Source: Oscillospiraceae bacterium (GTDB taxonomy: Bacteria > Bacillota > Clostridia > Oscillospirales > Ruminococcaceae). Taken from it: 53,168 nucleotides of DNA. A model generated the notes under the pieces. That model did not search any database, was not told where the DNA came from, and was given only the letters and a program-made list of their open reading frames with translations. Positions 17,841-39,318 of the stretch are shown here, piece by piece. The DNA lies in contig JAIRWC010000038.1 of the NCBI GenBank assembly GCA_031253495.1, positions 1 through 53,168 of the forward strand, in the 5' to 3' direction. The stretch's first letter is position 1, and every line of letters begins with the position of its first letter. A program made the position numbers and the translations under genes.

Positions 17841-17867
17841 TAAAGTTTTATAAAGCCCGGACGATAT
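17841..17867 (+). promoter_or_regulatory. Sigma-28 (SigD/FliA) type promoter
   Basis: TAAAGTTT (17841-17848), exactly 11 bases, then GACGATAT (17860-17867). The consensus is TAAAGTTT-N11-GCCGATAA. It lies 89 bases upstream of the DUF5610-like gene and matches the promoter at 38539-38565. Confidence 0.75.
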
Positions 17868-17903
17868 AATAATTGTAAAGAGGTTTTCAATACGGGCTAA
17901 CTG

Positions 17904-17936
17904 TGGCAATTCCGCGTTTCATGCGGAATTACTATA
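17904..17936. repeat. Dispersed hairpin repeat, family 1, copy 2
   Basis: AATTCCGC (17908-17915) and GCGGAATT (17923-17930) around GTTTCAT, inside the 5' leader of the sigma-28-controlled gene. It is closely related to 2684-2718 and 35671-35705. Confidence 0.6.
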
Positions 17937-17956
17937 TACCGAAAGGAGAATATGCC

Positions 17957-18640
17957 ATGAATATCAGCAAAGTAATCGACACGTCGATGACGAACCACGC
18001 CAACATCCCGAAAACGGCGCAGCAGGACACCCAGAAGAAATCGACCACGCTCGCCGCCGATAACGTGGATAAGTACGACGCCAACACCGCCGCCTATAAC
18101 GCCAATTACAACGCCGCGGCGAACAGGACCGAAAACCTTAACGTGCAGGCGTACAAAGGCGGCGTAAAACAAATCAAGAACGCGCTTTTCCAAGACTACG
18201 TCAATTTCAACTTCGGAAAGCAGTCGGGCGTTTCGATAAATCGGTTTTTCGAGGATTTCAGCTTTAACCCTTCGTCGTTCGCGGTGAACGCGTTTAACGC
18301 GGCCGAGGCGACGTCCGAGAAACACGCGGATTATTGGAGCGCGGACGCGGTGGCGGAACGTATTTTCACTTTCGCCAAGACGCTGGCGGGGGAAAACGAC
18401 GAGCTTTTCTCCACTATGAAAAACGCGTTCTTGAAGGGCTTTAAATTAGCCGAAGGCTCAAGGGGCGGAACCGGCAAACTTCCGGATATAAGCTATCAGA
18501 CCAAAGAAAAGGTTTTGAGCTATTTCGACGACTGGGAAAAGGAAATCAACGGCAAGAAAGCCGCCGCCGCAGGGGAAAGCGCTCCGACCGCCCCCGCCGC
18601 AGGGGAAGGCGCTCCGACCGCCCCCGATTCCCGACAATAA
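17957..18640 (+). CDS. DUF5610-like protein under a sigma-28 promoter
   Basis: Predicted 227 residues, no signal peptide or membrane helix. The N-terminal ~90 residues are Asn/Ala/Thr-rich and probably flexible. The C-terminal part has VAERIFTFAKTLAG, then FLKGFKLAEGSRG, LPDISYQTKEKVLSYFDDWE, the pattern I associate with DUF5610 (family assignment from memory). The tail is a 30-base tandem duplication (18566-18625) giving two GESAPTAPAA-like units. ATG 17957 follows AAAGGAG; an earlier in-frame codon lies in the repeat. The promoter suggests co-expression with flagellar and chemotaxis genes. Function unknown. Confidence 0.7.
   Translation: MNISKVIDTSMTNHANIPKTAQQDTQKKSTTLAADNVDKYDANTAAYNANYNAAANRTENLNVQAYKGGVKQIKNALFQDYVNFNFGKQSGVSINRFFEDFSFNPSSFAVNAFNAAEATSEKHADYWSADAVAERIFTFAKTLAGENDELFSTMKNAFLKGFKLAEGSRGGTGKLPDISYQTKEKVLSYFDDWEKEINGKKAAAAGESAPTAPAAGEGAPTAPDSRQ
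18566..18625 (+). repeat. Two-copy 30-base tandem repeat in coding DNA
   Basis: Period 30, units differing by one base (AGGGGAAAGC versus AGGGGAAGGC), both followed by GCTCCGACCGCCCCC. It encodes a Pro/Ala-rich C-terminal tail. Confidence 0.7.
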
Positions 18641-35720: not shown

Positions 35721-36662
35721 GTGAAACCCGTTATAATCGACAAAAGCCTTGTCGGCATGAATTTCTATGAAAGCGCCGAGAAAAAAGAGGTCTTTTTCTA
35801 TGTCTGCTCCCTCGCGGAAGCGGGGGCGAGTTATATCGAACTGGGTCTCGAGGCGGCGGTAAAATTACCCAAGCCGAACGGTTCGGAGAAATACATATAC
35901 AGAATAAACGGCGCGGAAGAGCATATAATCGCGAACGCTTTCGAATTTGCCTACGCCGTCGTCCCGCTTAAATACTCTTTCGTCATACCCAAATTGACGC
36001 TTCCGGTAATCCTTGAGATAGACGTCGACGGCGCGGACGTTTTTGAAACGCTCGGTCTGGTGGCGGGCAACCTCGACTTTTCTCGCGTCAACATGATTAG
36101 GTTGACAGGCAATTTCGAGCCGGAACAGCTTTCAAAAATCATTTTTGACTACAGGCGGAAAATGGTTCTGCCGATTGACGTCTGCCCGAAAAACGACAGG
36201 CTTTCCGCGCTTTCCTCCGCGATAGCGGCATATACGGCGAATTTCGATTCCGTAACCGTCTGTTTCGGCGACAGCGATTCTTTCGCGTCGCTGGAAGAGC
36301 TTTTGATTATGCTTTCGGCGGTGCATAAGATAATAATAAGCCGGGATTACCTTACGGGAATATGCAAGGCGTCCTTGCTCTCCGCGGTAATCGCCGAAAC
36401 GAAAATCACCAACCTTTCCGTTATGATGCGCAAATATATGTATTGCCCGCTGGATATAGAAAACATCGACGGAAAAGACGGAATCCGGCGTTCAAGACCG
36501 TTCGGGCAAAATCGGTTCCGCCGCGTTCCCGCCGTCGAGAAGGCGGTGCGCGCCCTCGGTATCGAGCGGGAAATATCCGAAAGCATCATCAAGGCTTTAA
36601 ACGGATGCGACATGGGTTTTCCGGGGAAAGCCGAGGATTCTGACGACAGGGAGTTGCAATGA
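35721..36662 (+). CDS. Degenerate DRE-TIM metallolyase-like protein (tentative)
   Basis: Predicted 313 residues from GTG 35721 (AAGGGGG seven bases upstream). The N terminus VIIDKSLVGMNFYESAEKKEVFFYVCSLAEAGASYIELG follows the layout of homocitrate/isopropylmalate synthases (hhDTTLRDG, then a helix and IExG). However, the catalytic Arg-Asp of the RDG motif is replaced: Asp7 is kept and residues 11-12 are Val-Gly. Alternating hydrophobic strands then fit a TIM barrel. No HxH metal motif is seen near the C-terminal part, which carries DIENIDGKDGIRRSRPFG. It is probably not a functional synthase. Its end overlaps the VanY-type gene by four bases (ATGA). The family link is weak and the gene may be an unrelated barrel. 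Confidence 0.6.
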   Translation: MKPVIIDKSLVGMNFYESAEKKEVFFYVCSLAEAGASYIELGLEAAVKLPKPNGSEKYIYRINGAEEHIIANAFEFAYAVVPLKYSFVIPKLTLPVILEIDVDGADVFETLGLVAGNLDFSRVNMIRLTGNFEPEQLSKIIFDYRRKMVLPIDVCPKNDRLSALSSAIAAYTANFDSVTVCFGDSDSFASLEELLIMLSAVHKIIISRDYLTGICKASLLSAVIAETKITNLSVMMRKYMYCPLDIENIDGKDGIRRSRPFGQNRFRRVPAVEKAVRALGIEREISESIIKALNGCDMGFPGKAEDSDDRELQ

Positions 36663-37618
36663 CCGAAAAAAAGCATACGCGCCGCGCGTTCGCCGCCGTT
36701 ATCGCCTGTTTGGCTTTAACCGCCGCGGCGTGCGTCGGCATCCCCGAAAACGCGGAAACGCCCGCCGAAACGCCGAGCGAAACGCCGAGCGAAACGCCCG
36801 CCGAAACGCCGAAAATGACAAAGCAAGTCACCGAAACGCCCGCCGAAACGTCCGCCGAAACGCCGAGCGAAACGTCCGCCGAAACGCCGAGCGAAACATC
36901 CGCCGAAACGCCGAGCGAAACGGTTACCGCGACTGACGCCGTCACGGCTTCCCGCTCGCCGGAAGAGCGCGCGCGGGAAACGGCCGCGCTTACCGTTGAC
37001 GAAAACGGCGTTGACAACGCTTGGGCTTTCCTGCTCATAAACGCGAGGAATCCGCTTCCCGACGGGTATGTTCCCGTAACCGCCCCGATAGGCGTATATT
37101 CCCTTGACGCGCGCTGCGCGGAATACGCCCTGCTTATGTTCGAGGCGGCGCGGAACGACGGGATAACGCTTAACGTTCAGTCGGCTTACAGGAGCATAGA
37201 ACGGCAGACGGTCAATTTCGAGAGCTTTTATAATTCCTTGGTCAGCCGCGGGTATACGCCGGAACGGGCTTTTGACGCGACCGCCGCCGAAATCGCGCCG
37301 CCTTACACAAGCGAACATAACGCCGGGCTCGCCGCCGACATAGGAATCATCGAAAGTTATTTCGACACGACGGAGGAATTTCGCTGGCTTAAGGAAAATT
37401 CGTGGAAATTCGGTTTCATCATGCGCTATCCCGCCGACAAAACCTCGGTTACCGGAATAATATACGAACCGTGGCACTACCGTTTCGTGGGGTTGTACCA
37501 CGCCGGGAGAATCCGCGATTCGGGGCTGTGCCTCGAGGAATACATGGGGGACGACGGTTCGGACAACGACGTGAACGGGGTCGTCGAAAAGTTCAGGGAA
37601 TATATCACGGGAAGATAA
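36659..37618 (+). CDS. VanY-type D-alanyl-D-alanine carboxypeptidase, exported
   Basis: Predicted 319 residues. A basic N terminus and hydrophobic stretch end LTAAAC25, a possible lipobox. Residues ~30-95 are a low-complexity stalk of repeated ETPSET/ETPAET/ETSAET units. The M15B peptidase domain follows: NVQSAYRSIERQ, PPYTSEHNAGLAADIG (zinc His and Asp) and GIIYEPWHYRFVG (catalytic Glu and zinc His), so the zinc site is complete. It trims the terminal D-Ala of peptidoglycan stem peptides outside the membrane. The long Thr/Glu stalk would hold the enzyme away from the membrane. Confidence 0.9.
   Translation: MTEKKHTRRAFAAVIACLALTAAACVGIPENAETPAETPSETPSETPAETPKMTKQVTETPAETSAETPSETSAETPSETSAETPSETVTATDAVTASRSPEERARETAALTVDENGVDNAWAFLLINARNPLPDGYVPVTAPIGVYSLDARCAEYALLMFEAARNDGITLNVQSAYRSIERQTVNFESFYNSLVSRGYTPERAFDATAAEIAPPYTSEHNAGLAADIGIIESYFDTTEEFRWLKENSWKFGFIMRYPADKTSVTGIIYEPWHYRFVGLYHAGRIRDSGLCLEEYMGDDGSDNDVNGVVEKFREYITGR
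36755..36925 (+). repeat. Coding low-complexity repeat (Glu-Thr-Pro/Ser units)
   Basis: GAAACGCCGAGC and GAAACGTCCGCC units alternate with periods of 12 and 24 bases, interrupted once by AAAATGACAAAGCAAGTCAC. Encodes the stalk of the carboxypeptidase. Confidence 0.75.
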
Positions 37619-38538: not shown

Positions 38539-38565
38539 TAAAGTTTTCCCGCCGCCTGCCGATAT
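38539..38565 (+). promoter_or_regulatory. Sigma-28 (SigD/FliA) promoter, near-perfect
   Basis: TAAAGTTT (38539-38546), exactly 11 bases, GCCGATAT (38558-38565). Fifteen of 16 consensus positions match. The gene at 38602 starts 36 bases downstream. Confidence 0.85.
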
Positions 38566-38601: not shown

Positions 38602-39318
38602 ATGATTAACAACGTAAACGCGCACACAAACGCGAGCGGCGTTTGGCGCGCCAACAACAAGCCCTCCGCTATGAATATTTGGAAGGTCGAAAAACCGGAG
38701 GTTCAAAAGACCGGCGCGTTAAGCGCGGCGGCGCAGTCTTACCTTGAGGAACTTAAGAAAAAGTTCGGGAACGTCGATTTTATCATAGCGGACTACTCCA
38801 CCGACGACGAGGCGCAGAAACTGCTCAGACAAGGCACGGGCGAGTATAACTGCCTCATCACTCCCGCTTTGCTGGAGGAAATGGCGGCGGACGAGGGCGT
38901 TCGCGACAAATACGAGGGCGTCATCGGCGACGCCATCGGTCAGGTCGACGAACTGAAAGAAACCGTTAAGGAAACCATCGGGGAAAAGGCCGAGGCGATA
39001 CAGAATTACGGGTTTTCCGTGGATTCCGAAGGCAACGTAAACTACTACGTCTTGCTGAAAGACGGTCTTCCCGGCGACGTGAACGGCGGTTCAAGCATAG
39101 TGAAGGCGGGTTCGATTGAGGAATTGCTTAAAAAGCTCGACGAGCTTGACTTGAAAAAGAGCGAGGAGAGGCGCGCCGAACGCCGCAAAGAATGGGAGAA
39201 GCCCTACGGGGACGGGTTCGGTTTGAATATCGAGGAATTTCTCAAAGACGACGTCGCGCGGAAAATTCGCGGCAAGAACGAGAGCCGCAGGGATGAAAAC
39301 TTAGATTTTCTCGCATGA
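38602..39318 (+). CDS. DUF6033-like protein under a sigma-28 promoter
   Basis: Predicted 238 residues, soluble, no signal peptide. AAGGACGG precedes ATG 38602. The core is SYLEELKKKFGNVDFIIADYSTDDEAQKLLRQG, NCLITPALLEEMAADEGVRDKYEGVIGDAI, and then a Lys/Glu/Arg-rich C-terminal tail. The core matches my recollection of DUF6033, a family common in flagellated Lachnospiraceae; function unknown. It shares its promoter type with 17957-18640, 20 kb away, and both have an Asn/Ala/Thr-rich N-terminal ~30-80 residues. It may be a motility-linked or flagellum-exported protein (inference). Confidence 0.75.
   Translation: MINNVNAHTNASGVWRANNKPSAMNIWKVEKPEVQKTGALSAAAQSYLEELKKKFGNVDFIIADYSTDDEAQKLLRQGTGEYNCLITPALLEEMAADEGVRDKYEGVIGDAIGQVDELKETVKETIGEKAEAIQNYGFSVDSEGNVNYYVLLKDGLPGDVNGGSSIVKAGSIEELLKKLDELDLKKSEERRAERRKEWEKPYGDGFGLNIEEFLKDDVARKIRGKNESRRDENLDFLA

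Follow-up and report, generated by a model that had tools for sequence, protein, structure and literature searches.

Two predicted sigma-28 promoters in an Oscillospiraceae genome precede candidate members of the late flagellar programme

The window described here (the whole stretch of DNA that was analysed, 53,168 bases, contig C35 of genome G000, which comprises 1.67 Mb in 45 contigs and is 98% complete) raises the question whether the sigma factor of the late flagellar genes also transcribes two uncharacterised genes, and what their products might do. The initial annotation had placed a site with the sigma-28 consensus, at the right spacing, upstream of gene 1 and another upstream of gene 2, with no flagellar gene between them. 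Both sites are exact matches (Table 1), their -10 elements lying 89 nt and 36 nt, respectively, before the ATG codons of genes 1 and 2 as read from the sequence, and no flagellar gene was recognised anywhere in the window on reading its translated ORFs.

Table 1. Positions and properties of the promoter-like sites and genes in the window.
Feature	Position	Strand	Elements or properties	Basis and remarks
Sigma-28 (FliA/SigD) type promoter 1	17841..17867	+	-35 TAAAGTTT, 11-base spacer TATAAAGCCCG, -10 GACGATAT	Exact match; similar sites at relatives
Ribosome-binding site AGGAG, 5' of gene 1	17944..17948	+		Sequence reading
Gene 1, 227 aa, ATG at 17957	17957..18640	+	Disordered N-terminal half, helical C-terminal domain (~107-206)	Remote DUF5610 resemblance
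Sigma-28 type promoter 2	38539..38565	+	-35 TAAAGTTT, 11-base spacer TCCCGCCGCCT, -10 GCCGATAT	Exact match; DUF6033 genes of two congeners with 16/16 sites
Gene 2, 238 aa, ATG at 38602, DUF6033 (PF19498)	38602..39318	+		Pfam E 1.2e-32; single-sequence model

When up to one mismatch is allowed, the pattern TAAAGTTT-N11-GMCGATAW occurs just twice in the window, both times exactly and at promoter distance from a gene, as compared with 0.01 matches expected (the mean of 100 dinucleotide shuffles, in which two matches were never reached). Occurrence of the motif at random frequency, which the initial annotation had named as evidence that would speak against its proposal, is thus not what is seen in the window. 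Allowing up to three mismatches gives an unremarkable count (4 versus 2.5 expected), and a looser pattern with the spacing one base off gives 8 matches versus 10 expected; the latter skips both sites and is uninformative.

The genome possesses the corresponding regulatory system, the absence of which had also been named as a possible objection. A profile search of G000 located FliA/SigD at C32:13222-13878, with 217.5 bits versus a curated cut-off of 189.6, as well as two flagellins on C5. The operon around fliA on C32 presumably encodes FliM, FliP, FliR, FlhB, FlhA, FlgF/FlgG, CheC, and CheD, and on C5 a gene that we take to be FlgL-like adjoins those that we take to be FlgM, FlgN, and FlgK, all of them named from sequence. 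The flagellin genes were expected to share the motif, and they do so, as does the putative flgM: with a spacer of 12 bases, it scores 16/16 upstream of flagellin 1 and flgM and 15/16 upstream of flagellin 2. At the unknown genes, the spacer is shorter, with 11 bases. Counted in the manner used for Butyrivibrio, the sites of the window become TAAA-N16-MCGATAT and those of the flagellins TAAA-N17, both inside the range of the Butyrivibrio sigma-28 consensus, TAAA(N16-17)MCGATAa (PMC3720852). The SigD promoters of C. difficile include those of flgM and fliC (PMC7438776). In G000, a pair of sigma-28 type sites lies 81 bases apart upstream of flgM (C5:32374-32401 and C5:32455-32482), with scores of 15/16 and 16/16.

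Throughout the genome, there are four exact sites with the 11-base spacer and two with the 12-base spacer, with two and three more, respectively, at one mismatch. Up to two mismatches, the numbers are 13 versus 6 for the backwards pattern (11-base spacer) and 12 versus 4 (12-base spacer). Five of the six exact sites precede a gene in the appropriate orientation; the one at C2:21357 lacks a clear oriented gene. Besides the sites already described, an exact one lies upstream of a 167-aa ORF on C45 and a one-mismatch site upstream of a 204-aa ORF on C16, neither of these ORFs having a credible Pfam match. When 147 genomes of the order were searched, each of the two families was found in three, one of which is G000 itself. 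In the congener G067 the relatives of both the C45 and C16 ORFs have 16/16 sites, and a second gene of the C45 type has a 14/16 site; at weak matches to these families in G105 and G045 no site was found, the ORF in G045 not having been correctly located. As a separate observation, C2:21357 and C45:127950 are similar stretches, with the -10-like part and the palindrome behind it in common. One of them lies before a tRNA-Gln and the other beside a gene that we take to be rpmF, and they resemble a dispersed repeat that happens to contain a sigma-28-like match.

A scan of named genomes yielded 48 relatives of gene 1, from Oscillospiraceae, other Clostridia, Lachnospiraceae, Nitrospirota, and Desulfuromonadales/Desulfobacteraceae, and the sites within 300 nt upstream of them were scored out of 16. 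The closest named-genome relatives are from Oscillospiraceae MAGs (84% identity in L083 and 69% in L084), the isolate codes of which presumably point to termite hosts. A score of at least 14 is reached by 27 of the 48 relatives, of at least 15 by 22, and of 16 by 10. The upstream regions of neighbouring ORFs, used as a control, reach at least 14 in 3 of 208 cases and at least 15 in none, and of 1,664 pieces drawn at random from these loci 0.42% reach 14 and none 15. Clustering at 60% identity reduces the 48 relatives to 20 clusters; a score of at least 14 is reached by some member in 10 of these, and by the first member in 8. In the congeners, the gene 1 sites score 16/16 (G067) and 14/16 (G108), and high scores extend to a locus from Lachnospiraceae (L121, 16/16) and to those from Desulfobacteraceae and Desulfuromonadales (L126/L127, 15/16). 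The remaining 21 relatives, including all five from Nitrospirota and most Lachnospiraceae loci, have no site of at least 14/16 within 300 nt. About half of the known gene 1 relatives retain the late flagellar switch, and since just 27 of the 48 wider relatives reach at least 14/16, the site is not kept in every lineage. A profile search of the phylum, the results of which partly overlap with the set of 48, gave 30 loci; among the 29 that were scored, with the window gene included and L153 left out, 9 reach at least 14 and 6 at least 15. A relative is also present in a cultured organism, Agathobacter ruminis JK623 (L113), with a site of 13/16.

With a flagellin match taken as the marker of flagella across genomes (the search for FliA having covered G000 only), flagellin is present in 37 of 197 genomes of the order. 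Relatives of gene 1 occur in 14 genomes of the order, 13 of which have flagellin (Fisher p 6e-10, with kinship ignored); in the exception, G004, the lack of a flagellin match is possibly a gap, because this genome is just 55% complete. In the sample of the phylum, all 33 genomes with a relative of gene 1 are flagellin-positive, versus 322 of 398 overall (p 9e-4, kinship again ignored). DUF6033, the family of gene 2, is found in 7 of the 197 genomes of the order, six of which are flagellin-positive (Fisher p 2e-4, likewise with kinship ignored), and the exception, G036, is listed as 100% complete. Both families are absent from most flagellin-positive genomes, and gene 1 must therefore be regarded as accessory.

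Only a minority of gene 1 relatives have flagellar genes nearby, which counts against the flagellar reading: by BLAST against the flagellar proteins of G000, such genes were recognised in 2 of the 48 named loci. In L083 the relative of gene 1 is arranged tail-to-tail with cheD-cheC-flgG-flgF (some names putative), and in L130 a flagellin lies ~2 kb downstream, yet the relative has no good site. In the phylum set, 3 of 30 loci have flagellar neighbours by BLAST (L146, L149, and L152), with L148 added by Pfam. Downstream of the relatives in L146 and L149, on the same strand, flgB or flgB-flgC (some names putative) follows after an ORF of 136-170 aa. In L152, which is the same place as L076, a flagellin is found downstream of the gene 1 relative, with a similar arrangement in L080 of genome G138. 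The ORF that precedes the relative in L113 and L121 is presumably yvyF. In four Nitrospirota loci among the 25 of 48 that were displayed, no flagellar ORF was recognised. An ABC transporter ATPase lies upstream on the opposite strand in 20 of the 48 loci, all within L086-L109; these loci belong to Oscillospiraceae or other Clostridia, with one labelled Bacteroides and one Bacillota.

Gene 2 exceeds the gathering cut-off of DUF6033 (113.9 bits versus 25) and is thus a member of this named yet uncharacterised family. With the starts set at the conserved N terminus, the three flagellin-positive congeners sampled (G000, G067, and G108) each have a DUF6033 gene with a 16/16 site. Lower scores are found for two more copies in G067 (14 and 13), for G169 (12), and for the scored copies of G036 and G189 (at most 11). 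The two genes of the window had been regarded as unlinked, which is true of this genome and not of L108, where the two families are neighbours: a gene 1 relative follows a DUF6033 gene (PF19498, E 1.7e-16) on the same strand after 209 nt, their site scores being 13 and 11, respectively. In G036, G189, and G067, DUF6033 genes stand immediately behind GHKL kinases (PF14501, E 7e-23 to 2.5e-21). Several copies lie in one stretch of G036:C11 (L051, L056, and L058), together with more ORFs starting with MSVSGI, and the other kinase-preceded copies are in L052 (G189) and L057 (G067). Since DUF6033 occurs in G036 without a flagellin match, as well as behind GHKL kinases, the family is not purely motility-linked.

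The description of gene 1 as DUF5610-like amounts to a remote resemblance, seen among its relatives, 9 of 14 of which match PF18433 with E values of up to 1, the best being 1.6e-4. The window protein itself has no Pfam match, and membership in DUF5610 was rejected on the ground that no match is found at E up to 10. Among 291 genomes of the class, one DUF5610 match reaches E 0.001 and none the cut-off. The model of the gene 1 product, based on 46 aligned sequences, comprises a disordered N-terminal half and a helical domain that is predicted with confidence (block means above 90 from residue 111 to 200) and that contains the conserved core; no clear fold match to this domain was found in the PDB. 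In the single-sequence model of the gene 2 product (mean pLDDT 64), the first 37 residues are disordered and an alpha/beta core is predicted at lower confidence, with no reliable structural match.

FlxA is a coiled coil, and both models differ from it, that of gene 1 in its disordered N terminus and helical domain and that of gene 2 in its predicted alpha/beta fold. The likeness to FlxA-like proteins (PF14282) consists in uncharacterised function and in sigma-28 dependence, which is predicted for the window genes and described for E. coli flxA (PMC4183435). With E values of up to 1 considered, neither of the two window proteins matches PF14282, and their assignment as FlxA-like was rejected. 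FlxA-like genes are found after one DUF6033 copy of G067 (E 2.5e-8) and near a gene 1 relative in G760.

Four unknown proteins of G000 preceded by such sites contain 1 Cys in 836 residues. When the flagellar proteins of this genome are compared, with the classes and some starts assigned by the analyst, 12 exported ones have 9 Cys in 3,874 residues (0.23 per 100 aa) and 11 cytosolic ones 20 in 2,851 (0.70). For the 48 relatives of gene 1 the count is 21 in 10,626 (0.20 per 100 aa), compared with 880 in 67,600 for neighbouring ORFs. The DUF6033 relatives have 17 in 2,676 (0.64 per 100 aa), and the set as a whole is therefore not Cys-poor by the flagellar yardstick. No long hydrophobic stretch is present in the unknown proteins. 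An N-terminal pattern, M-x(0-2)-[IV]-x(1-2)-[VI]-[NADSGT], occurs in 29 of 48 gene 1 relatives, 6 of 10 DUF6033 proteins, and 13 of 233 neighbouring ORFs, the pattern having been picked post hoc, with homologues that are not independent and control ORF starts that are crude.

Taken together, these data are consistent with the following sequence of events. RNA polymerase with sigma-28 (FliA/SigD) would transcribe both genes, and their products would therefore be made late, alongside flagellin. Late genes in sigma-28 systems are turned on after export of FlgM, and expression of genes 1 and 2 would accordingly follow completion of the hook-basal body and exit of FlgM from the cell. As members of the late flagellar programme, the products would be small and soluble, and the role favoured for them is that of accessory proteins exported by the flagellum. 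Each chain would pass through the export gate of the flagellum with its flexible N terminus and conserved first residues ahead, and its folded C-terminal part would act at the filament or outside the cell. As judged from the upstream sequences, sigma-28 control of both genes appears well supported and their dependence on FliA is very probable. The explanation as a whole, in which membership in the late programme is combined with the role of an exported accessory, seems to us somewhat probable. Flagellar export of both products is predicted only tentatively, with rather less than even confidence, and activity outside the cell is putative. The Feds of Campylobacter jejuni are non-structural proteins co-expressed with the flagellum under sigma-28, and they would be functional analogues of the window proteins if export holds. 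Secretion of non-flagellar proteins through the flagellar system of Campylobacter is described in two reports (PMC5223770, PMC2764114).

That the motif matches arose by chance or are not promoters is highly improbable, considering the 0.01 matches expected in the window and the 22 of 48 relatives with at least 15/16 versus none of 208 controls, even though, of the 11 sites that the genome contains at no more than one mismatch, three (those on C2, C36, and C30) are unlike promoters of an oriented gene, and many newly found FliA binding sites of E. coli are located inside genes, some without a change in expression (PMC4183435). A different origin can be considered for DUF6033, which might mainly act downstream of GHKL kinases, as the output of their peptide or quorum sensing, with sigma-28 control in this genus as a secondary recruitment. 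The kinases that directly precede it in three genomes, as well as the several copies in the stretch of G036, which has no flagellin match, point in this direction, and a role of the kinase-preceded genes as quorum-sensing output is possible; with six of seven DUF6033-positive genomes of the order having flagellin and 16/16 sites kept in three congeners, such an origin for the family nevertheless seems unlikely.

The location of the products is less certain than the control of their genes. Both could be sigma-28 controlled and remain in the cytoplasm, where they would serve late flagellar assembly as chaperones, adaptors, or regulators, which is conceivable, at a confidence well below even. The compact helical domain modelled for the core of gene 1 would suit such a role; in L146 the ORF that follows the relative is weakly FlgN-like (PF05130, E 0.0054, below the cut-off), and in L148 the relative is near, and convergent with, FliW and CsrA. 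On the other hand, the low Cys content is nearer to that of the exported than of the cytosolic flagellar proteins of G000, and a long disordered N terminus with a conserved start is unusual for chaperones of the FlgN/FliS type. Flagellar export, putative as it is, is favoured over a cytoplasmic role on grounds that are all indirect, namely the low Cys content, the lack of a long hydrophobic stretch, the disordered N terminus, and the N-terminal pattern.

The small, undescribed set of motility-linked proteins suggested at the outset agrees with the conserved sites of the relatives and with the co-occurrence with flagellin; it must be enlarged by the C45 and C16 families, and its DUF6033 part is not purely motility-linked. 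Genes 1 and 2 point to a little-studied protein set that accompanies the flagellum, and the gene 1 family, found almost only in flagellin-positive genomes and with the late promoter in several lineages, makes a good candidate for a late flagellar or flagellum-secreted component that has so far gone unrecognised. The open-licence literature searched contained no mention of DUF6033 or DUF5610 and no report of these families, DUF6033 included, as sigma-28 targets. We can speculate that several unrelated families (those of gene 1, DUF6033, C45, and C16) together make up a single, so far undescribed class of flagellar export clients under sigma-28 control, with a common N-terminal start and a partly common C-terminal tail; although this is doubtful, such a class would, if real, span Bacillota, Nitrospirota, and Desulfobacterota. 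The tail, [FVILM]-[DN]-[FVILT]-[KR]-[AV], was defined after looking at sequences, among which the homologues are not independent, and is present in 10 of 846 distinct ORFs of the fetched loci, five of which are DUF6033 members and the other five gene 1 relatives of the Nitrospirota branch. Counting against a single class are this post hoc definition, the lack of good sites at the Nitrospirota genes, and the absence of the tail from the four unknowns of G000, gene 2 ending with LDFLA.

The tail-bearing loci are L048, L049, L055, L057, L108, L112, L117, L118, L120, and L123, and a similar tail was seen by eye at the end of L165, a member of the C45 family in G067. The C terminus of gene 1 (18560-18640 of the window) carries a short repeat, AAGESAPTAP and AAGEGAPTAP, that is absent from the nearest relative, L083. 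Elsewhere in the window (36659-37618), a VanY-type carboxypeptidase (PF02557, E 6.5e-30) contains a Ser-Ala-Glu-Thr-Pro-like repeat after its N terminus.
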